Shown here piece by piece: positions 35,650 through 45,610 of a DNA stretch of 64,000 nt. Position 1 is the stretch's first letter; the number at the start of each line of letters is the position of its first letter. The notes below the pieces were generated by a model that worked only from the letters and a program-made list of their open reading frames with translations, made no database searches and was not told the origin of the DNA. This DNA comes from Phyllobacterium myrsinacearum (GTDB lineage: Bacteria; Pseudomonadota; Alphaproteobacteria; Rhizobiales; Rhizobiaceae), in contig NZ_PVBT01000005.1 of assembly GCF_002980555.1 (NCBI RefSeq), positions 310,001 to 374,000 of the forward strand, given 5' to 3'. The position numbers were made by a program, and so were the translations under genes.

Positions 35650-36185
35650 GGTCTACCCCCACTTGGTGATGCATTCATCAATGCCAGGTGTCATCACCTT
35701 CATTGTTGACGTGAATGCTTTTCCGAAAAGGTAGCGCTGCCCTGAAACCAGTTCTATTTAGGAGAAATGACGAGAAGGTCCGTCTGAAGTATGAGGTAGT
35801 ATGGACCTTTGGACTACGGTGGCAAAGGCGGGTGCCTATGTTTCTGCCACGCACGGTGCGTCCTTCGGGTGCGTGCCCGCCAATGCCTGCAAAAGGTTTA
35901 AGCAGAACAAGCCCATCAGACTATATTTTCTGCCCAAGTAAAAACTTGGAACTATCAAAATCATGACCTGGGCCGCGTCAAGCAAACTATCCGGCCTACC
36001 CGAAACCGCTCCAGACTATCAATCAGCCTAGGCAAGTCACGCCCGCGTCACTCCCAAGTAATTAACTTAATCTTTATTAATGCCGAATGGGCATTGCCGC
36101 GCGGACGGGCATTTTGAATTACGCGCGAAAAATAACGAAAAAACAAAAACTTACAGGTCTATTCCTGTCAAAAATGGGGGCAAGC
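35650..36185. promoter_or_regulatory. Long intergenic region before LuxR-type regulator
   Basis: 536 bases between divergent genes. Features: an inverted pair CACGCAC (35848-35854) and GTGCGTG (35869-35875), an inverted repeat ACAGG-6 nt-CCTGT at 36153-36168 close to the regulator start, and AT-rich DNA near 36060-36150. No protein or RNA gene is convincingly supported. Confidence 0.4.
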
Positions 36186-37025
36186 ATGAATAGTAATGTG
36201 CCTTTTAACCTAAGCGAATGCATGAATAGCGAACCCGGAAAGAACTTTGAAAGCAAATCCGACAACAGCATCTTCATTTATGCTGAAACAGGGGTCGTTT
36301 TCCAGGGACTGGTCAAGTCATTGGAAAGAACATTCGCCGATATCCGGATAACGCTGTCGAGCTTTCTTCCCGATGCCCAGGATCCCGACCCGGGCATCGG
36401 CTTGGTCCTCCTGCAGACGGAGCTGATCACCGATCTTCCCGACTGCATCGAGCGCTGCCGGATATGTTTTCCCAATGCATCCATCACGCTGATGATCAAT
36501 GGCGATGGATGTGCATCGCAGGGATTGAACAGATTGTTCTGCGACCGGAGAATCCAGGGCCTGCTTCCGTTCACGCTGAAACTCGACATCTGGCTGGCTG
36601 CCATATGGCTGCTGCTCAATGGCGGCGAATACTACCCCTACGGCGTCATGCAGTCGCTGGAAAAACTGGCAAAGGACGGCCATGCCCGCCATCAGCAGCC
36701 GTCTCTGGCGGACGGCAAACGGGCGCATCTGTCCGCCGCCAAGCCCATCGATACTTTGACATTGCGCGAACATCAAATTCTCGAGCTGCTCTCCGAAGGG
36801 CTGCAGAACAAAACCATCGCCGACCGCCTCAGCCTGTCCGACCACACGGTCAAGGTCCATGTCCATAATCTCATTCGCAAGCTCAAGGTGCACAACCGGA
36901 CACAGGCAGCCGCCGTCTACCGCAATCACATCGATCACGAATCCCTGCAATCGGCCTTCAGCTGGAACACCGAGCGCGCCTTCAGCCGCAATACCGAAAT
37001 CACAGACCTCATCATCAATATCTGA
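36186..37025 (+). CDS. LuxR-type regulator with Asp-less receiver-like domain
   Basis: 279 residues from ATG 36186 (GGGGGC upstream); the frame from 36087 has no good ribosome-binding site. The N-terminal part has a receiver-like layout (IFIYAETGVVFQGLVKSLE), but the phospho-acceptor position reads GLVLLQTEL, with no Asp. The C-terminal HTH is canonical: TLTLREHQILELLSEGLQNK, LSLSDHTVKVHVHNLIRKLK. It resembles the regulator at 20484 in design. It lies between the glycan locus and the RiPP locus and could control either. Confidence 0.78.
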   Translation: MNSNVPFNLSECMNSEPGKNFESKSDNSIFIYAETGVVFQGLVKSLERTFADIRITLSSFLPDAQDPDPGIGLVLLQTELITDLPDCIERCRICFPNASITLMINGDGCASQGLNRLFCDRRIQGLLPFTLKLDIWLAAIWLLLNGGEYYPYGVMQSLEKLAKDGHARHQQPSLADGKRAHLSAAKPIDTLTLREHQILELLSEGLQNKTIADRLSLSDHTVKVHVHNLIRKLKVHNRTQAAAVYRNHIDHESLQSAFSWNTERAFSRNTEITDLIINI

Positions 37026-37744
37026 CGGAGCGCACCATGAATCCGCCTCTCCTGGAAGGAGACGGGCGCGCGTCGGTCTGTTTCATGCTGCGCAACCGAT
37101 CGGGGGCCTGAATGGCGGATACCCCTATCGTGATCTCGCCGTCTTTGGCGGCCATGGAGCAACCCACTAAACTGCGCCATGGACATCGCCCCTCCTCTGG
37201 GGCTGCGGCAAAACCATGCACAATAACGGCGCAGGCTGGACAAGCGAGCGGACTTGGCGCGGGAGCGTCTACGCGATACGCACAGACGCCGACCCCCCCT
37301 AAAAGCAGCCAGAGGAAATATAATAGATGCATTCTGGACAATCATGAATATATCAGCGAAGCTACCTGTATAAACTCGCTAAAATATAAGTATATAAATA
37401 AAAATTGGAAATAAATATCAAAAGATACGGGAGAATTCATTAAAATTAACTTCCTTATAATTCATGCATTATACCAGCCATTCACGCCATATTTGGCGCA
37501 ATGAAAATCCGCCCGCATTTTATATCAAAATCAACCATTTCCTGTCGACTTCGAGCTCAGCCTACGCCCTTGGGTGAAACTCCCGCCAACCTGCTTAATT
37601 CAAATTTATTACGACTAAAGTTGATAATGACTATAGAGAACTACTGCAACCTATAGTAGATTTCATTACGAGGGCCGGAAGTAAACAACAATAATATGCA
37701 TTTCTAATCATAAATAAGGGTGACATACGGGGGCTTTAGCCATT
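37026..37744. promoter_or_regulatory. AT-rich leader before the SARP/RiPP locus
   Basis: 719 bases without a convincing gene. The left part is GC-rich; from about 37345 the DNA turns strongly AT-rich (11 G/C of 60 bases in 37381-37440). Two CTATAG motifs at 37631-37636 and 37651-37656 lie exactly 20 bp apart, and several TATA-like stretches occur. It probably holds the promoter and operators of the regulator at 37745. The shift in composition is compatible with horizontal acquisition. Confidence 0.45.
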
Positions 37745-39769
37745 ATGCGGTTGACAGTTTTGGGAGAGGCAACGGTTATGAGTATTGGCGGGCACCTGGT
37801 CCCGCGCGTACCGGCGAACTTTCTGCGAATTGTCACCTATATCCTGCTGGAGAGCAATTGCCACTCGGTGGCGCGCAGCAAGCTGGCACAAATACTCTGG
37901 TCGGAAACCGACCAGACTCACGCCAGCGTGAATTTGCGCCAAAGCCTTGCGCGCATCCGCCGATTCCAGGAGCAACTAGGCATCACCCTGATTGAAAGCG
38001 ACGCTGTCTATGTCAGGCTCAATTTAGCCTCGGTCGAACAGGGCCTTCTCGATATCGATCTGATGGAGTTTCTCAGCTGCGCCGCACGGGGAGGAGCCGA
38101 ACCCGCTCTCAGGATCTGCGAACTTTATCGGGGCGACCTTCTGATACAAAATGAACCCGACAACTCTGACTTCGACGAATGGCTGGATATCAAGCGCGTC
38201 AAAATTCGCGATGATGCGATCGTTGCCCTGCGATCGGCTCTTGATCAGCCTCATTTCAATATTGACGAGAGACGGCAATGCGCGCGCAAGCTGATCGACA
38301 TCGACCCCTATCAGGAGGTCGGCTATCGCATGCTCATGCAAACGGCATCCCAGCTCGGGATGATCACGATGGTCGAACGAACGTTCCGGGAATGCGCGAA
38401 GAAACTGCGCGATGACCTGGATATCGATCCAGAGGCTGAAACAATCGAGCTATACCAGCATCTGCACACCAAAAGATCGCTCAACTTGCCGCAACCCGTC
38501 ATTCATTCACCGGTGCTGGGGTCCTTGTCTCTCAACGATGCTGACCATCACCGGTCCTACTTTCTTCAGCCGGCAAATTCGCTCGAACTGTCAAGACAGC
38601 CCATCCTGCCAAAGATTATTGTATTGTACCTGCCGCAAACCCTCGCAGACCCCATGGAGCAGTTGGCAGCCTCCCTGGTTGACGATATCACGATAGGATT
38701 GTGCCGCCTGCGTACGCTGTCCGTGGTCGCTCCCTATACATCCATCCGGGTTGTGACGGAATCGAGCATCAACGGCTTCTCCGACCTTCACGAACAATTG
38801 GGCGTGGATTTTGTCTTCGACAGCAGACTGATGCGCGGCGATGGCTTTTGCTTCCTCTCGGTAAAACTCATCAATACGCGCACGCGGGAGATCGTCTGGG
38901 CGGAAAAACAGAAATTTGATTATACGCTGCCTGAACAGCAGTACCGCCACCTGTCCATGCGCATCGTCCTGTCCATCGTCACCACCATCGAACGGGAGGA
39001 GCTGGACCGCTACAACCGGCTGATCCAGAATCCCGATGCCTATTACTGGTACCTTGTCGGCAAGCGTGAAATCGACAGCCTTGATCTGACGAAAGTCCGT
39101 ACCGCGCGGGATGCTTTCAAGAATGCCCTGATCGCAGCGCCGGATTTCGTGCCCGCCTTGAGCGGTGTCGCGCGAACCATGCAGCGCGAATGGCTTGTTC
39201 TTGCACGCAATGACAAGGATATCCTGCTTGAAGGCGAACAAATCGCCAAGAAGGCCGCGCCCAACGACCCGGATGACGAACGGCCTTTGCGCGAGCTGGG
39301 CACCATCAATATGTATCTTGGCAAGTATGATGAAAGCCTGGAATATTTTGATCAAAGTGAGACGCTCAACCCGCAACATGCCGACCTGCTTGCCGACTAC
39401 GCCGACGCCTTGACCCATTCCGGCGAGCTCGAACTGGCTCTCAGCAAAATCCAGCACGCAATTGCGCTGAACCCCCTGGCGCCCGACTATTACTACTGGG
39501 TGGGCGCTGGCACCTTCCATTATCTCGATCGCTATGCCGAGGCCATCGCGTTTCTTCAGAAGATGAAAAATCCGCGAGCGGCCGCCCGCTTGATGGCAGC
39601 ATGCTGGGCACGATTGGGTGAACATGAACAGGCCGCGGAATACAGAAATTATGCTCTGGAAGATAACCCGTCTTTTCGAATTGACGAATGGGTAAAATCG
39701 ATGAGCCTCAGAATGCCTGCCCACCGTAGGATGTATGAAGAATCTCTACGCGAAGCGGGATTCCAGTGA
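37745..39769 (+). CDS. SARP/BTAD-type transcriptional regulator with TolB-like and TPR domains
   Basis: 674 residues. An N-terminal OmpR-like DNA-binding domain (about 1-90; FLRIVTYILLES, HASVNLRQSLARIRRFQEQL) is followed by a bacterial transcriptional activation (BTAD) helical domain (about 95-245; IDPYQEVGYRMLMQTASQLG). A TolB/FlgO-like middle (LASSLVDDITIGLCRLRTL, TREIVWAEKQKFDY; about 285-420) and TPR-like repeats to about 645 complete it. Proteins of this design often activate neighbouring secondary-metabolite genes. It ends 33 nt before the first small peptide gene. Confidence 0.85.
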   Translation: MRLTVLGEATVMSIGGHLVPRVPANFLRIVTYILLESNCHSVARSKLAQILWSETDQTHASVNLRQSLARIRRFQEQLGITLIESDAVYVRLNLASVEQGLLDIDLMEFLSCAARGGAEPALRICELYRGDLLIQNEPDNSDFDEWLDIKRVKIRDDAIVALRSALDQPHFNIDERRQCARKLIDIDPYQEVGYRMLMQTASQLGMITMVERTFRECAKKLRDDLDIDPEAETIELYQHLHTKRSLNLPQPVIHSPVLGSLSLNDADHHRSYFLQPANSLELSRQPILPKIIVLYLPQTLADPMEQLAASLVDDITIGLCRLRTLSVVAPYTSIRVVTESSINGFSDLHEQLGVDFVFDSRLMRGDGFCFLSVKLINTRTREIVWAEKQKFDYTLPEQQYRHLSMRIVLSIVTTIEREELDRYNRLIQNPDAYYWYLVGKREIDSLDLTKVRTARDAFKNALIAAPDFVPALSGVARTMQREWLVLARNDKDILLEGEQIAKKAAPNDPDDERPLRELGTINMYLGKYDESLEYFDQSETLNPQHADLLADYADALTHSGELELALSKIQHAIALNPLAPDYYYWVGAGTFHYLDRYAEAIAFLQKMKNPRAAARLMAACWARLGEHEQAAEYRNYALEDNPSFRIDEWVKSMSLRMPAHRRMYEESLREAGFQ

Positions 39770-39802
39770 CGCAACGTCCAATACAAACAGGGGAAAACAT
39801 GC

Positions 39803-40039
39803 ATGGAAAAGTATTTCATCATCGGGGAAGCCGGGACTGATGAACTTTGGCTTGTCAACACGGCGGAAAATCGCGTTGAAAAATTGAACAGCGCTGCCGC
39901 TGGATCCGTTATCGAAACCATCAATACAGCGCGAAAGAACGGAATTACACTCATCAAGGGAGTAAGTATCGCGATTGTTACAAACAGCAGGACGGGGGCT
40001 GATGTAAAAATGTCAATTACCGATCCAACAGTTAAATAA
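39803..40039 (+). CDS. Small peptide, candidate RiPP precursor 1
   Basis: 78 residues, ATG 39803 with AGGGGA upstream. The N-terminal half (YFIIGEAGTDELWLVN, then ENRVEKLN) is clearly related to the next peptide, whereas the C-terminal half is not. This is the pattern of a shared leader with variable cores. The C-terminal part is rich in Ile/Val/Ala/Ser/Thr (GVSIAIVTNSRTGADVKMS), with no Cys. It sits immediately before YcaO-TfuA genes. I recognise no annotated family; the precursor role is an inference from context, size and paralogy. Confidence 0.65.
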   Translation: MEKYFIIGEAGTDELWLVNTAENRVEKLNSAAAGSVIETINTARKNGITLIKGVSIAIVTNSRTGADVKMSITDPTVK

Positions 40040-40147
40040 AATAGAAATGTCGTTGGATAAGAAATCTCATCGATAATATTCAATTGATATAGAAACGAAT
40101 CAAAGTACCGTTGCCATGTGGTTCTCCTTCATGGAAAGGTTACTCGC

Positions 40148-40375
40148 ATGGCAAAGTTTTACATCATCGATGAGCCAGAGACCGACACGCTCTGGCTGGT
40201 AAACCTGGAAGAAAAAACCGTTGAGAGTCTTGATCGGAGTATGATTGAATGCTCCGGATCGGCTGGGTATGACTTCATAAAGACTATCAGTAATCGATCA
40301 GAAAATATAATGATTACTGAAGGTTACCGGAATGGCCCAGCGGAAAGACTCTCGTCCGCGAGCCCCTTGCAATAG
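40148..40375 (+). CDS. Small peptide, candidate RiPP precursor 2
   Basis: 75 residues from ATG 40148 (GGAAAGG upstream; ATG 40118 gives a 10-residue longer form). FYIIDEPETDTLWLVN and KTVESLD align with peptide 1: about 16 of the first 28 residues are identical. The C-terminal half differs and contains the only Cys (IECSGSAGYDF). It lies 108 nt after peptide 1 and 70 nt before YcaO. It likely shares a leader recognised by the same YcaO enzyme. Confidence 0.65.
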   Translation: MAKFYIIDEPETDTLWLVNLEEKTVESLDRSMIECSGSAGYDFIKTISNRSENIMITEGYRNGPAERLSSASPLQ

Positions 40376-40393
40376 GCTGCGCTATTCCAGGGG

Positions 40394-40425
40394 ATCATCG
40401 CATTTATCGATATAGGCACGATGAT
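40394..40425 (+). promoter_or_regulatory. Hairpin between precursor 2 and YcaO
   Basis: Perfect 7-bp arms ATCATCG / CGATGAT around an 18-nt loop, 18 nt after the peptide stop and 20 nt before the YcaO start. No T-run follows. It may stabilise the precursor mRNA or attenuate read-through, setting a high peptide-to-enzyme ratio. Confidence 0.35.
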
Positions 40426-40445
40426 AACGGTTCGCTGGAGTAACA

Positions 40446-41702
40446 ATGCAGCAATTGGCCGAAACTTCCATACTGAACAGGCTGGCGGCGGATGAAGTCA
40501 ATCTTTGTTCCGCCGCCCGTCTGGAGCAACGGTCGTCGACACGACTGATCGACGCGGATCTGACGGTGCAAAAACTGCGTCCGCACTTTCCCCATCTCGG
40601 CATCGTCCGGCTGGCCGAGGTAACCGGGCTGGACCGGATAGGAATCCCGGTGTGGATGGCTGTCCGCCCCAACAGCAAGACTCTGGCCGTGAGCCAGGGC
40701 AAGGGGATCACCACAGCCCATGCGCGCGCGTCCGCTGTCATGGAAGCGGCTGAGATCGCCATAGCCGAAAACATTCCCCTCGCATCGGTCCGCGCCAGCC
40801 GGCAGGACTTGCTGCAGGCCGGCAGGACCGTCTTTGACGGGCGGATGCTGGTTATGAAGGGCGCCGACGAACCAGCACCCGAGCTCATCGATGAATGGCT
40901 TGAGGGCTATGACCTTCTGCGGAACAGAACGGTATTCGTACCCAGAGAACTCGTATCGCTCGACTTCACATCAGCGCGAAAAGCGCGGCATTACTGCCAG
41001 TCGACCGATGGCCTTGCCTCGGGCAACTGCCTGCTTGAAGCTGTTATTCACGGCCTGTGCGAGCGCGTGGAACGCGACGCGACCGAACTATGGCGGTTCA
41101 AGCGCGACAGTGCCGTCCATGCCCAGTGCGTCGACCCGGCGGTGTTCCCGGACGCCGGTATCCGCTGGCTGGCAGACAGGATCAGTGGGGCGGGTTTCCT
41201 GCTGCGCCTTTTCGATATTCGTTCCGATATCGGCCTTCCGGTATTCATGGCAACCATCAACCCGGTTTCGCGGAAAGGCACCTATCTGCATTTCGACCTT
41301 TCTGCCGGGTATGGGTGCCACCTGTCGCCGCGCGTGGCCGCCATGCGGGCGATCACCGAGGCGGCCCAGACGCGTATCACCAATATTTCCGGCGCCAGAG
41401 ATGATTTTGATCCCTCGGAATATGCGCAGCGCCTTGCTCCTGATCTCGGTGTCTACATAAGGGCAGAGCCGAGGGCCCATTGGCACTTTGACGAACCGGA
41501 ACCGTCAGAACCTGCGCGCCTCGATGCCTATCTCGACCCGTTGCGCAACCGCGGTATTGGCAGTGCGGTCGTTGTTCCCCTGGGCGGTGAAGCCTATGGA
41601 ATGTCCGTTTGCCGCGTCCTGATCAACGAGCTGGAAAGCCCAGCCGGCATACGCAAACACCGCTTTGGCGGAAGGGCGCTGAACGCGATGTTGCTGCAAT
41701 GA
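40446..41702 (+). CDS. YcaO family ATP-dependent peptide-backbone-modifying enzyme
   Basis: 418 residues. The YcaO ATP/Mg-binding motifs are all visible: SQGKG (83-87), SAVMEAAE (96-103), CERVERD (205-211), RAITEAAQTR (301-310) and SGARDD (315-320). The C-terminus (RALNAMLLQ) lacks the PxPxP tail of azoline-forming cyclodehydratases. Together with the coupled TfuA gene this points to thioamide formation or a related backbone change on the adjacent peptides rather than simple azoline formation. GGAG lies about 6 nt before the ATG. Confidence 0.92.
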   Translation: MQQLAETSILNRLAADEVNLCSAARLEQRSSTRLIDADLTVQKLRPHFPHLGIVRLAEVTGLDRIGIPVWMAVRPNSKTLAVSQGKGITTAHARASAVMEAAEIAIAENIPLASVRASRQDLLQAGRTVFDGRMLVMKGADEPAPELIDEWLEGYDLLRNRTVFVPRELVSLDFTSARKARHYCQSTDGLASGNCLLEAVIHGLCERVERDATELWRFKRDSAVHAQCVDPAVFPDAGIRWLADRISGAGFLLRLFDIRSDIGLPVFMATINPVSRKGTYLHFDLSAGYGCHLSPRVAAMRAITEAAQTRITNISGARDDFDPSEYAQRLAPDLGVYIRAEPRAHWHFDEPEPSEPARLDAYLDPLRNRGIGSAVVVPLGGEAYGMSVCRVLINELESPAGIRKHRFGGRALNAMLLQ

Positions 41703-42445
41703 AGATTCTGTTTGCAGGCCCAAGTCTTTCCAGAACCGAATTCGTGCCCGTGCGCACAAATGAAGATCGCCTGCTGCCCGATCGTTCTCTGACGTGCCGG
41801 GGGCCGGCGAAATGCGGGGATATCACCCGCGCGGTGGATGAAGGCTACAGCATGATCGGACTTGTCGACGGCCGTTTCGAGGATGTGGCCGCGGTCTGGC
41901 ACAAGGAAATACTATACGCGCTTTCGCAGGGCGTCACCGTTCTCGGCGCGGCAAGCATGGGTGCGCTGCGTGCGGCGGAATGCCATCCATTCGGCATGAT
42001 CGGCATTGGGGAGGTTTTTGCGCGCTACGCGTTCGGCGGATTGGAGGACGATGCCGCGGTGGCACAGGTGCATGCACCGGCCGAGTTTGGCTATACTGCC
42101 TTCACAGAAGCCATGGTCACCGTTGATGCGACGCTGGATGCGGCGCTGCATGTATCGGCAATCACGCCCGGCGAACATGTCTTGATCCGCGACAGAGCCA
42201 ATGCAGTGTTCTTCAAGGACAGGAGCTGGGCACGCATATTCGAGGCCCTGGCTCCCGATATCATTGACGCCGCCGGACGGCTCAAGCCTTTCATTCGCAA
42301 CGTCAAAAGACAGGATGCGGAGGCCCTGTTGAACGTGTTGCTTGAAGGCAAAAACCCTGCCGAAGCCGGGGGATTGACGGCAGATTCCACCAGCTGGCTC
42401 TTCAACGAAACGACGCAGTGGCGAAAACTGCGGGCTCAGCACTGA
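41699..42445 (+). CDS. tfuA: TfuA-like protein
   Basis: 248 residues from ATG 41699, which overlaps the YcaO stop (ATGA); the longer frame to 41609 is inside ycaO. The family signature is clear: MKILFAGPSLSR, GLVDGRFEDVAAVWHKEIL (54-72) and GAASMGALRAAE (83-94). TfuA proteins partner YcaO enzymes; in methanogen McrA and in thioviridamide-type peptides the pair is linked with thioamide formation, TfuA being thought to supply the sulfur. The complete 1:1 YcaO-TfuA pair supports a modified-peptide locus. Confidence 0.93.
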   Translation: MKILFAGPSLSRTEFVPVRTNEDRLLPDRSLTCRGPAKCGDITRAVDEGYSMIGLVDGRFEDVAAVWHKEILYALSQGVTVLGAASMGALRAAECHPFGMIGIGEVFARYAFGGLEDDAAVAQVHAPAEFGYTAFTEAMVTVDATLDAALHVSAITPGEHVLIRDRANAVFFKDRSWARIFEALAPDIIDAAGRLKPFIRNVKRQDAEALLNVLLEGKNPAEAGGLTADSTSWLFNETTQWRKLRAQH

Positions 42446-42481
42446 ACGGATCCGCCGGGGTTTCAAAAAGGACTATCCTTG

Positions 42482-42507
42482 GAAGATGTAAGCGACAGTA
42501 CATCTTC
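42482..42507 (+). other. Perfect hairpin after tfuA
   Basis: GAAGATGTA / TACATCTTC, 9-bp arms with an 8-nt loop, 36 nt after the tfuA stop. No T-run, so it is not a classic terminator; it could end transcription by another means or be a protein-binding site. Confidence 0.4.
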
Positions 42508-42691
42508 GATGTATGATCCCTCCTCCAAAAGGATGCGGCCTTCGCTCTGGGTTGGCTTTTTTCAGCGCCCAGTAGGCCGATTTCAGCATCGGACAACCGC
42601 CAAAATCCAAAGCGTTTCCCGCCATGCCTTCCTATAGGATGGTCATCGGAATATTTGGATTGAAAGTTGCACTGTAACCACGGAGGGGACT

Positions 42692-43558
42692 ATGTCACCA
42701 ACTACAGAGCGGCACCGGCCACTCAGCCGCGCGCGACGACACTTTCTCGGCGTGGCGCTTTCCACGAGCGTCAAGGTCGCGGCAATCACAGGCTTGGCCA
42801 CGGCCATGTCTTCCTTCCCCGCGCGGGCCATGGGAAGGAAATGGTGGAGACATGGCGGCGAGCCCGGCCATACCCCCGGCGGCGACAATCAAAACTGCTT
42901 TCTCCGGGGCACCTCGATCAGGACCCCGGCAGGTGAGGTTCATATTGAAGATCTTCGGATCGGCGATGATGTGGAAACCATGAACGGCAAAGCTGCCGCC
43001 GTGAGATGGATTGGACGCCAGGTTTACAAAAGGAACAGCCCGTCCTGGGCGGCCAGCGTCATGCCAATCCGTATTTCACGCCACGCTTTCGATCAGCAAA
43101 CGCCCCACGCGGATCTCTACCTCTCGCCCAATCATGCACTGTATGTCGATGGCGTTCTGATCCGCGCGAAGGATCTGGTGAACGGCCTGTCCATTGCTCC
43201 GTCGCTTCCCCCTGACCGGGAGATCATCGAATATTTCCACATTGTGCTTGATACCCATGACGTGATCTTCGCCGAGGGTGCTCCTGCTGAAACATTCCTG
43301 CTTCGCGACAGTAACCACGAGAGCTTTACCAACTTTTCCGAATATGCACGCCTTTACCCCGCAGGCCTCGGCACACCCATGGTGCCCTTCGCGCCGATCA
43401 TTGGTTATGAAGGCGGCCGCGAGAACCTGATGGCTCTTCTGCGCCTCGGCCTGCCCCGCTTCATCGGCTTGCGTGATCCGGTTCAGGACGCCCGCGACAG
43501 ATTTGCCTTGCGTGCCCGGGAAACCGCAGGCACCGACCGGATGCACGCCATGGTGTAA
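42692..43558 (+). CDS. Tat-exported Hint-domain protein
   Basis: 288 residues. A twin-arginine signal (SRARRHFLG at 12-20, hydrophobic 21-46, cleavage near SFPARAM) precedes a Hint_2 domain that fills the rest: NCFLRGTSIRTPAGEV with Cys69 at the usual reactive position, LYLSPNHALYVDG (145-ff), and EYFHIVLDTHDVIFAEG. Hint domains self-cleave or rearrange peptide bonds in hedgehog and intein proteins. Here almost nothing precedes the domain but the signal. A good GGAGG-type site precedes the ATG. A link to the RiPP genes is possible but unproven. Confidence 0.85.
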   Translation: MSPTTERHRPLSRARRHFLGVALSTSVKVAAITGLATAMSSFPARAMGRKWWRHGGEPGHTPGGDNQNCFLRGTSIRTPAGEVHIEDLRIGDDVETMNGKAAAVRWIGRQVYKRNSPSWAASVMPIRISRHAFDQQTPHADLYLSPNHALYVDGVLIRAKDLVNGLSIAPSLPPDREIIEYFHIVLDTHDVIFAEGAPAETFLLRDSNHESFTNFSEYARLYPAGLGTPMVPFAPIIGYEGGRENLMALLRLGLPRFIGLRDPVQDARDRFALRARETAGTDRMHAMV

Positions 43559-43602
43559 CGAGAAGCGCCGCGGCAAGGAATAGGTAACCGCTTGAATGCG
43601 AC

Positions 43603-43634
43603 AAGCAGGCGTTCCCCTCCGGGAACACCTGCTT
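43603..43634. terminator. Hairpin between convergent genes (possible bidirectional terminator)
   Basis: 14-nt arms 43603-43616 and 43621-43634 with a 4-nt CTCC loop and one mismatch (a G-U pair on the minus-strand transcript). It lies between the Hint gene and the convergent GMC oxidoreductase. There is no strong T-run. Confidence 0.5.
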
Positions 43635-43681
43635 CGACATGTTCAGCAAGAGCGCTTACCTGGCTCAAGTCCGGCTAGTCC

Positions 43682-45331
43682 TCACACGGCTTCAGCGCGT
43701 TCTCCGCCCGTTCGGAAGCCTCCGATGCCTTCATGAAAGCCATGCAGCGCCTTGATATGATCGGCAAGCCGCAATGCCAGCGCGACAATTGTCAATGTCG
43801 GCATATCGTTGCCACAGGTCGGAAACACCGAACTGCCGGCGACGTGCAGGTTGTGGATGCCGTGCACCGTACAGTCCTGGTCGACGACGCCCCTATGCGG
43901 GTCGACATGCATCCGGGTGGTTCCCATATGATGATTGCATCCGATGATCGAAAGCTCAGGCTCTGCAGCCGGCCGCTCGAGATCGACATGTCCGACGCCG
44001 GATGCCTCAAACTCATCCTTAATCAGTCCCAGCATCCGTGAGTGGGTGTGCTTTTCCAGATCGCCGACACGCCAATCAAGTGCTGCCCGGTTGAGGCCCA
44101 ATCTGTCCCGCTGCGCCGACAGCGTAACCCTGCTCTCCCTGTTGGGAACGGGTTCGATGACACTCTCGATCTGGAAATAATCCGACTTCGCGGCGAGCCG
44201 CAGCTTCCGGTAGAGCAGGGATGCCATGAGGTTGGGACTGCCAAGCGCAACGGTGGCAAATGTTCTCAATTTGAAGTCGCGATAATGCCGCCACCGGATG
44301 GCATTGTATATCTCGTGGAAACGCTCGGTCAGCGTGCTGTCCTCGCCCGCCCGGCATGCCCGGAAATAGGTGCGGCACTGCACCAGGTGTTCGTCCCGCT
44401 GAACCTGTTCCGTCAAGCCGAGATGCGCGCTTGCGCTGGTACCATCCACGGCAAGCTTGGGATTGTGATAGGTGTAGCGGGCATCGTAAAAGCGAAACGC
44501 GGCGGCATTGACCGCAGGTATCATCTGGCCAAGGCGAATACGCGGGTGCTCCATGAAATAGCGGCCGACCACATCGTGCTGGTTGCCAAGCCCTCGCTGA
44601 TCACACCGGTTGGACAGCAGGAGAAGACGGGCGTTTTCGATCCCGCCCGCGGCTAGAATGACTCTTTGGGCCCGCACGAACATCATCTTTTGCCCATATG
44701 TCGCCACGTGCACGCCGGTTACAGTTGATGGATCTTCATGCGTCGCGATCTCGGTTGCATTGGCATTCAGCAGCACTTTCGTCGTTTGCGCGGTGCGTAG
44801 AAACGCCTCATAGTCGCGGCCAAACCGCGTTGGCGGGCTAAACTTGCTCACCATCGTCTCAAGCGAGGCATCATTCAGCTCCAGCAGTATGGAGCGGTCG
44901 CCCACGAGATGTTCGTGCCAGAACTGCGGTTCGAAACCGTGATTATTGACTTGGACCAGGTCGCTTGCACGGGCATAGAACCGCTGCATCTCCGTCAGAT
45001 CGAACGGCCATCCACTGTTGGGCACCCAGTGCCGCGGTTCAAAATCAATGCCGATGAACGGTCGTATCCACCCGCCCCAGCAATTGGAACTGCCGCCGAA
45101 TTGCCGGGTTCTCGTCGCCTGAAGGTCGTAGGGGATGCCAAGGTTTTCGCCCTGGTAGAGGGATTGTGACGCGGCATTGAAGTTCAGTCCACCGCCTTCA
45201 AGAACGATCGTTTCAATGCCCCGTTTCTGGAATTCGAGCGCAAGCGTGATCCCTGCGACGCCGCCGCCAACGATGCATATCGCGGCATCCAGAACTGAAC
45301 CCGCTGGAAGTTCTCTGGCGTCAACAAACAT
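43682..45331 (-). CDS. GMC family oxidoreductase
   Basis: 549 residues from ATG 45331 (an upstream TTG 45367 has no ribosome-binding site). It has the FAD motif CIVGGGVAGITLALEFQKRG near the N-terminus, RQFGGSSNCWGGWIRP and the C-terminal GMC signature with NLHVAGSSVFPTCGNDMPTL. The His of IGCNHHMGTTRM lies in the expected catalytic region. Such flavoenzymes oxidise sugars, alcohols or other small molecules. It is convergent with the Hint gene; its relation to either the RiPP locus or the sugar operon upstream is uncertain. Confidence 0.85.
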   Translation of the reverse strand: MFVDARELPAGSVLDAAICIVGGGVAGITLALEFQKRGIETIVLEGGGLNFNAASQSLYQGENLGIPYDLQATRTRQFGGSSNCWGGWIRPFIGIDFEPRHWVPNSGWPFDLTEMQRFYARASDLVQVNNHGFEPQFWHEHLVGDRSILLELNDASLETMVSKFSPPTRFGRDYEAFLRTAQTTKVLLNANATEIATHEDPSTVTGVHVATYGQKMMFVRAQRVILAAGGIENARLLLLSNRCDQRGLGNQHDVVGRYFMEHPRIRLGQMIPAVNAAAFRFYDARYTYHNPKLAVDGTSASAHLGLTEQVQRDEHLVQCRTYFRACRAGEDSTLTERFHEIYNAIRWRHYRDFKLRTFATVALGSPNLMASLLYRKLRLAAKSDYFQIESVIEPVPNRESRVTLSAQRDRLGLNRAALDWRVGDLEKHTHSRMLGLIKDEFEASGVGHVDLERPAAEPELSIIGCNHHMGTTRMHVDPHRGVVDQDCTVHGIHNLHVAGSSVFPTCGNDMPTLTIVALALRLADHIKALHGFHEGIGGFRTGGERAEAV

Positions 45332-45610
45332 GGCGTGAAAGCCCGGATTGAGCAAAGCTGAAAACAATATTGAGCGATATGGCGTGTTCCATTGCCGATC
45401 GACCTCAAGCCAGAACGAGCAAGACCAGTGTTATGCTCACAGAGACAATCCGCCGGTTGGCGGCTTGTCTGTCCCCATCGGATATTTGAGGGCGATTATA
45501 GGGCCGGATGGCCTCCAGGCGGAATATGCTGCGACGGCTAGGACGAGTAGCCCTTTTGCTTAGAGCCCTCCTCATTCGGGCTACTGGTTGCACAACCGAT
45601 TGGGTACAGT

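Follow-up and report, generated by a model that had tools for sequence, protein, structure and literature searches.

What do two small peptides encoded immediately upstream of a YcaO–TfuA pair have to do with those enzymes? The question is raised by a compact locus of Phyllobacterium myrsinacearum (assembly GCF_002980555.1), examined here in a window of 64,000 nucleotides (contig NZ_PVBT01000005.1, positions 310,001 to 374,000; coordinates below are window positions, on the forward strand unless stated). An initial annotation, made without database searches, had proposed a probable undescribed system for ribosomally synthesized and post-translationally modified peptides (RiPPs), made up of two peptides, a complete YcaO and an adjoining TfuA. 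We consider it likely that the cassette serves RiPP biosynthesis, with YcaO–TfuA modifying modular precursors. The open reading frame (ORF) coordinates bear out two small peptides on the same strand as the enzymes, namely peptide A (78 aa, 39803–40039) and peptide B (75 aa, 40148–40375, counted from an ATG; in the ORF list it begins with a GTG at 40118). YcaO (418 aa, 40446–41702) and TfuA (248 aa, 41699–42445) follow, and the two genes adjoin as described, with TfuA overlapping the YcaO stop by 4 nt. The annotation had the composition of the unit right in these four genes and left out its most constant member, a 674-aa BTAD/TPR regulator (37745–39769) recognized with Pfam, which opens the cassette and whose stop lies 33 nt 5' of peptide A. 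Peptides A and B are 108 nt apart, and B and YcaO 70 nt.

Peptides A and B are genuine genes under purifying selection, since comparison with P. calauticae (L056) gave low nonsynonymous (dN) relative to synonymous (dS) divergence for A (dN 0.064, dS 0.657) and for B (dN 0.006, dS 0.595), a signal absent from the other two forward frames. They share a leader motif in which M1, K3, W16 and L17 are invariant across 21 rows of A and B. A predicted model of A places three strands and a helix in residues 4–45 and leaves the tail unstructured, with low confidence (mean predicted local distance difference test score, pLDDT, 60.3). The peptides had seemed unfamiliar in the initial annotation, and neither matched a family above cut-off in Pfam, NCBIfam, PHROGs or PADLOC; B had no Pfam match of any kind, and the matches of A to CYAA_C (E 0.083) and PIN-TPR-GreABC (E 0.13) were far below cut-off and were rejected. 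From alignment, we place a proposed core region of A at residues 61–78 (39983–40036; NSRTGADVKMSITDPTVK), as the single core-like tail behind the leader. In B, the leader is followed by a single core unit, YRNGPAERLSS with the tail ASPLQ (40325–40372, border likewise inferred), which is the counterpart of units such as RSDPSDRAFS that are repeated in relatives.

That repetition was evident across Phyllobacterium. Besides the genome of the window, 20 genomes of the genus were searched for YcaO; 18 encode it, and the remaining two (G012 and G013) have neither YcaO nor TfuA. In all 19 loci compared (the window, L041–L056, G007 and G014) A is followed by B. The leader of B spans 55–59 residues and is succeeded by units such as GRSDPSERAYS (consensus RS[DN]PS[DE]R..). 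Counted with a fixed pattern, 3–7 units are present in 14 of the 19 loci and a single unit in five (the window, L052, L053, L054 and L056); in multi-unit genes the period is 13, 19 (with one step of 45) or 24 residues. Peptide A has one core-like tail in every locus compared. In L051 (P. sophorae), whose B has seven units, Tandem Repeats Finder reported 7.4 copies of a 39-nt unit with 91% matches. Summed over unit pairs, which are not independent of one another, and with L043 and L044 left out, synonymous changes prevailed over nonsynonymous ones in L051 (93/6), G007 (56/6), L046 (49/14) and L048 (31/11), and the sums were 49/23 in L055. Because silent changes prevail among units, the core units appear to be kept at the protein level in several of these genes.

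To survey the distribution of the precursors, we ran a profile built from A-type peptides (A1) on 394 genomes of the same taxonomic family and on a sample of 297 genomes of the order. Matches were found in 79 family genomes and 21 of 109 genera; one (G187) was judged to be chance and 78 were accepted, including seven that were not fetched and are counted on E-values of 5e-13 to 4e-12 or better (G211, G256, G270, G323, G363, G407 and G427). The order sample yielded 24 matches, with two due to chance (G573 and G600), five in the window's own family and 17 in other families (G465 and G622, not fetched, are counted among the 17). A wider profile (A3; 34 rows, one of them flawed) was run on 385 class and 299 phylum genomes, samples that include order members, so that the genomes outside the order are fewer than 385 and 299. 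In these samples it recovered the genome of the window, four already known family members and otherwise weak matches. Six of these (G737, G743 and G837 in the class sample; G1115, G1138 and G1298 in the phylum sample) were set aside as chance on the basis of E-values of 0.002–0.008 and odd reading frames, with the loci themselves uninspected. Within the samples searched, the precursor family seems confined to the order.

Linkage of the peptides to the enzymes extends well beyond the genus. From outside Phyllobacterium, 86 peptide records were fetched, of which three (L193, L194 and L198) were dropped as chance and 83, in 82 loci, were kept. In 75 of the 83 records the peptide is followed by YcaO in the same orientation, at most 160 nt from the peptide stop in 74 of these 75, and TfuA follows directly 3' of YcaO in 69 of the 75. 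The TfuA domain PF07812 occurs in 123 of the 394 family genomes, among them all 78 accepted peptide genomes (Fisher p 9e-49, for species that are related and hence not independent). The initial annotation had held that wide occurrence of the peptides without YcaO would refute a RiPP system. Such occurrence was not seen, as only eight records have no YcaO nearby: one (L190) is at a contig end and seven are in genomes with TfuA elsewhere. In two genomes (G337 and G073), YcaO–TfuA was located on other contigs, where it adjoins part of a regulator in one case (L227) and, judged by eye, what looks like a precursor remnant in the other (L228); the cassette can therefore be split. With a conserved leader, a variable and often tandem core, YcaO downstream in 75 of 83 records and TfuA in 78 of 78 genomes, the proposal of a probable RiPP system is upheld.

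Two types of core are visible, and these largely match the enzymes. 'SG' tails include VFSGHFDG, VSGGYMDG and AFSGKLE, and 'RS' tails include RSDPSDRAFS, TRSDAASHIFYG and RSDAASHHYFPNRG. By a mechanical rule, a C-terminal tandem repeat was present in 17 of 83 records compared with 9 of 1,660 shuffled tails; outside Phyllobacterium, the number of core units reaches eight in L191 and L192, seven in L184 and six in L188. Maximum-likelihood analysis of 90 YcaO proteins grouped 63 rows in one clade (support 100/99), 62 of them SG with L184 as the exception, and the 27 rows outside it comprise 22 RS, four of neither type and one SG (L048, labelled by its peptide A); the two patterns were written after the sequences had been seen, and long branches meet in this tree. 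The YcaO enzyme and the core type largely travel together. Whole-unit duplication of the tail and the fit of tail type to YcaO clade are typical of substrates.

What the enzymes would do to these cores is suggested by their nearest relatives. The YcaO of the window, with a best match of 89% in P. calauticae, is complete, as initially claimed: PF02624 (E 6.4e-60) covers the whole 325-position model, and the conserved YcaO stretches align with the nearest solved YcaO by sequence, MJ1094 (6pe3; E 1.9e-27, residues 30–322), which we take to be a thioamidation enzyme. TfuA matches PF07812 (E 2.7e-39) and has 6xp8 as its nearest solved relative by sequence. The nearest NCBIfam equivalogs are the YcaO and TfuA that thioamidate an McrA glycine. 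From the nearest structures and equivalogs we infer the following steps. The conserved N-terminal leader of ~55–60 residues (predicted β-β-β-α, at low confidence) would be recognized by the YcaO–TfuA pair, and the unstructured C-terminal core would be the part modified. YcaO would activate a backbone amide with ATP, and TfuA would support insertion of sulphur to give a thioamide. The cores would then be released by a non-dedicated protease, and core number would shift between species via whole-unit duplication. It is very probable that the cassette produces peptides bearing a chemical modification, from precursors that join a constant leader to one or several variable cores, and it probably represents an order-wide TfuA–YcaO RiPP family with modular precursors and a thioamidated product.

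The regulator is the most constant neighbour of the precursor. A homologue lies directly 5' of the peptide gene in all 82 loci (median gap 24 nt, range −5 to 258) and is also present in all of L041–L056; the genome of the window has one other, distant match (22%). In the protein encoded here, BTAD occupies residues 126–240 and C-terminal TPRs residues ~505–645, with an N-terminal part that is presumably DNA-binding; the other regulator parts bear winged helix-turn-helix and TolB-like labels, which we adopt as an assumption. Regulator length has a median of 606 aa over the 82 loci, where some starts were set too late. BTAD/SARP proteins are activators of biosynthesis. The eight records without YcaO nearby keep the regulator (those of L175 and L196 show no N-terminal part), and that it stays with the precursor even without the enzymes nearby is the oddest fact of the cassette.

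This constancy could mean that regulator and precursor form a peptide-sensing pair, in which the TPR part binds the precursor or a released modified core and switches the operon. Such a pair would be compatible with a RiPP unit, and we hold it as a tentative possibility. TPRs were identified with Pfam in two members of the regulator family, and the RRNPP systems likewise consist of a small propeptide adjoining a TPR receptor in the passages of PMC10075063. Among the eight neighbour clusters inspected, no exporter or immunity gene was evidently shared, and a further helix-turn-helix regulator cluster (one member identified with Pfam) lies upstream in 38 of 78 loci. A core-specific receptor would, however, be expected to vary with its cores. 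Calculated from 60 of the 82 regulators, mean pairwise identity is 52.8% in the TPR part, 43.2% in residues 286–425, 34.4% in the first 100 residues and 24.7% in BTAD. With the TPR part more conserved than the rest of the protein and the cores variable, the pattern fits a ligand that does not vary, for which the leader is likelier than the core, or an ordinary cluster activator. A plain cluster activator would also account for the linkage, and at 674 aa the regulator exceeds the 250–500 aa of RRNPP receptors given in the same passages. A further step, which we consider unlikely, is that regulator and multi-core precursor constitute a modified-peptide signal of Gram-negative bacteria, separable from YcaO–TfuA maturation, in which the regulator would sense either the precursor, most likely through the conserved leader, or cores that have been matured. 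If real, such a signal would provide rhizobia with a genetically encoded circuit for peptide communication or self-monitoring.

Two other explanations concern the enzymes. The modification may be an azoline or other YcaO chemistry in place of a thioamide, as many cores contain Ser or Thr and YcaO enzymes also make azolines and amidines (passages of PMC7136475). We think this unlikely, as the partner is TfuA, no E1-like or ThiF-like family was detected with Pfam among the eight proteins around the locus, and the last eight residues of some cores have no Cys, Ser or Thr at all (AVFAGYFD in G029). It is more improbable still that YcaO–TfuA act on a different cellular protein, as on McrA in archaea, with the small proteins as accessory subunits. 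The nearest curated enzymes are indeed the McrA thioamidation pair, and the leader may be a small fold (from the model of low confidence described above), but duplication of whole tail units and a tail type that fits the YcaO clade argue for substrates.

A modular RiPP unit remains our preferred reading, against which several observations weigh. The cassette is known here from its genes. The B peptide of the window itself has one unit, and Tandem Repeats Finder reported no repeat in the window. Silent changes were not clearly dominant between the units of L042 (99.5/75.5), L045 (78/57), L041 (59/50), L050 (18/14), L049 (66/62), G014 (73/66) and L047 (70/75). The Phyllobacterium cores have no invariant glycine or cysteine, so that the modified site is not obvious; as a guess, it would be an amide within RSDPS[DE]R there and the glycine of the SG step in SG-type cores. 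Six of the 75 records, which belong to a single genus, lack TfuA behind YcaO and have it elsewhere in the genome, and in 45 of the 123 TfuA-bearing genomes no peptide was recognized. Of the 14 largest neighbour clusters, the eight inspected included no protease cluster, and ABC ATPases were scattered over seven of 78 loci only. The window proteins missed the cut-offs of the equivalogs TIGR03266 and NF033432 (193.7 of 365 and 153.8 of 235.2 bits, respectively), and the sole NCBIfam cut-off passed was that of the general YcaO-type kinase model (170.8 versus 75.65). The genes, the leader/core anatomy, the tandem units, selection, linkage and the fit of core type to the enzyme tree are directly established; that the peptides are substrates, that the product is a thioamide, and which residue is modified, how cores are processed and exported and what the regulator does are matters on which the sequences are suggestive.

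Around the cassette, a terminator-like hairpin with a T run was found 3' of TfuA (42536–42554), a weak call as the scanned region holds nine such sites compared with a mean of 6.2 in shuffles; promoter and Rfam scans of the locus added nothing. A Hint_2 domain protein (42692–43558) lies just 3' of the cassette and recurs there, among the loci compared, only in L056; likewise, a GMC oxidoreductase gene (43682–45367, other strand) was re-found only in L056. Because they are poorly conserved in position across loci, we excluded from the unit the Hint, GMC and pfkB neighbours (re-found only in L056) and a LuxR homologue (L052 and L056 alone share its position on this side; elsewhere it lies downstream on the other strand). 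In other genomes, two clusters of small proteins of ~100 aa lie 3' of TfuA, in 13 and 7 loci (for example, L121, L154, L160, L161 and L195), and the two members tested matched no Pfam family above cut-off.

Further copies and possible relatives of the cassette genes were also observed. Two Phyllobacterium genomes hold additional, fragmentary YcaO and peptide sequences (G014:C4:946151-947035 and G010:C21:20909-21510), one with an internal stop. A second, distant YcaO (31% identity) is encoded in two genomes of this genus, at G007:C6:56700-57722 and G020:C86:53754-55348, with an adjoining TfuA in G020, and by eye no precursor was recognized among the upstream ORFs of either. TfuA loci without a recognized peptide were fetched for 18 of the 45 genomes, and in four of these (L236, L241, L243 and L244) the regulator lies just 5' of YcaO. 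Judged by eye, an ORF of 142–158 aa intervenes in L236, L241 and L243, and two of the three start like 'FFIVGKKGFGVLFIRT'; they may be still more distant precursors, possibly with a remotely related leader.

Used as a tblastn query, one SG-type peptide matched 59 plasmid records. Among the 30 of 59 listed are Rhizobium tropici CIAT 899, R. etli 8C-3, Neorhizobium galegae, R. leguminosarum BIHB 1148 and S. meliloti Ak57. The gene order in BIHB 1148 is a helix-turn-helix regulator, a 'peptide antibiotic resistance protein' in the place of the BTAD/TPR regulator, a hypothetical protein, YcaO-like and TfuA-like; in Ak57, no TfuA is annotated 3' of YcaO. Four plasmid records (CP091033.1, CP087975.1, NZ_CP022567.1 and CP090106.1) name TfuA an 'antibiotic resistance protein' and the regulator a 'peptide antibiotic resistance protein' or 'adenylate cyclase', names that look misleading. 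On pSymB of Ak57, an AAC(3)-VI family aminoglycoside N-acetyltransferase is annotated ~0.6 kb 5' of the cassette regulator (L226, 1281–2099).

The impression of novelty in the initial annotation is borne out to the extent of the literature searched. The leader, the cores and the link to the regulator are not described in the open-access literature searched, including passages of PMC6511847, PMC8120280, PMC8692822, PMC12993520, PMC7136475, PMC9670871, PMC4603692 and PMC10075063, with supplements and subscription papers outside the search. However, TfuA-related clusters of Rhizobium had already been counted: genome mining in PMC8120280 gave >500 'TfuA-related' clusters in that genus and 797 precursor networks, and these proteobacterial clusters probably include loci of the present family. 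The main text of that paper uses none of the terms 'repeat', 'multi-core', 'modular', 'Phyllobacterium' and 'SARP', its supplementary networks lying outside the search. If our reading is right, many TfuA-related clusters in common plant symbionts would gain a substrate family with predictable cores, as 78 of the 123 TfuA-bearing family genomes carry the precursor, and their products would be directly testable. Precursors that range naturally from one to about eight cores would be useful for studying leader recognition by the TfuA–YcaO pair, and with a TPR regulator tied to a precursor, whether Gram-negative bacteria sense peptides becomes a question that can be tested.

Among known systems, the methanogen McrA thioglycine pair (PMC5589413) supplies the nearest curated models and solved structures, although its substrate is a large enzyme, compared with the small precursor proposed here. 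Trifolitoxin of Rhizobium anhuiense T24, the system after which TfuA is named, is rhizobial like the present family; in passages of PMC9670871 and PMC4603692 it is an azol(in)e-containing peptide made by tfxABCDEFG, and it is by this description that we set the cassette apart. RRNPP pairs resemble the cassette in a small peptide gene adjoining a TPR regulator gene, but they are systems of Firmicutes (passages of PMC10075063), and their short pheromones are thought to be unmodified (PMC12998947). Thiovarsolin of Streptomyces varsoviensis (varA/varY/varT) shares the TfuA–YcaO pair. As described in passages of PMC6511847, precursors of its family carry a leader and from none to five imperfect core repeats; relatives of the window carry repeats too, the window itself having one unit. 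In those passages its cores are APR/GPR, absent from the cores here, and its cluster includes heme oxygenase-like, ATP-grasp, amidinotransferase and MFS genes, none of which was detected with Pfam among the eight proteins at 36087–45367. Thiovarsolin is from Actinobacteria, and the same passages describe no comparable BTAD/TPR regulator. By analogy, the precursors studied here would work like thiovarsolin repeats, with other cores, another leader and other neighbours. The RiPP family they belong to appears real, coherent and widely distributed; its enzymes are of a known kind, its precursors are modular and its regulator is constant.

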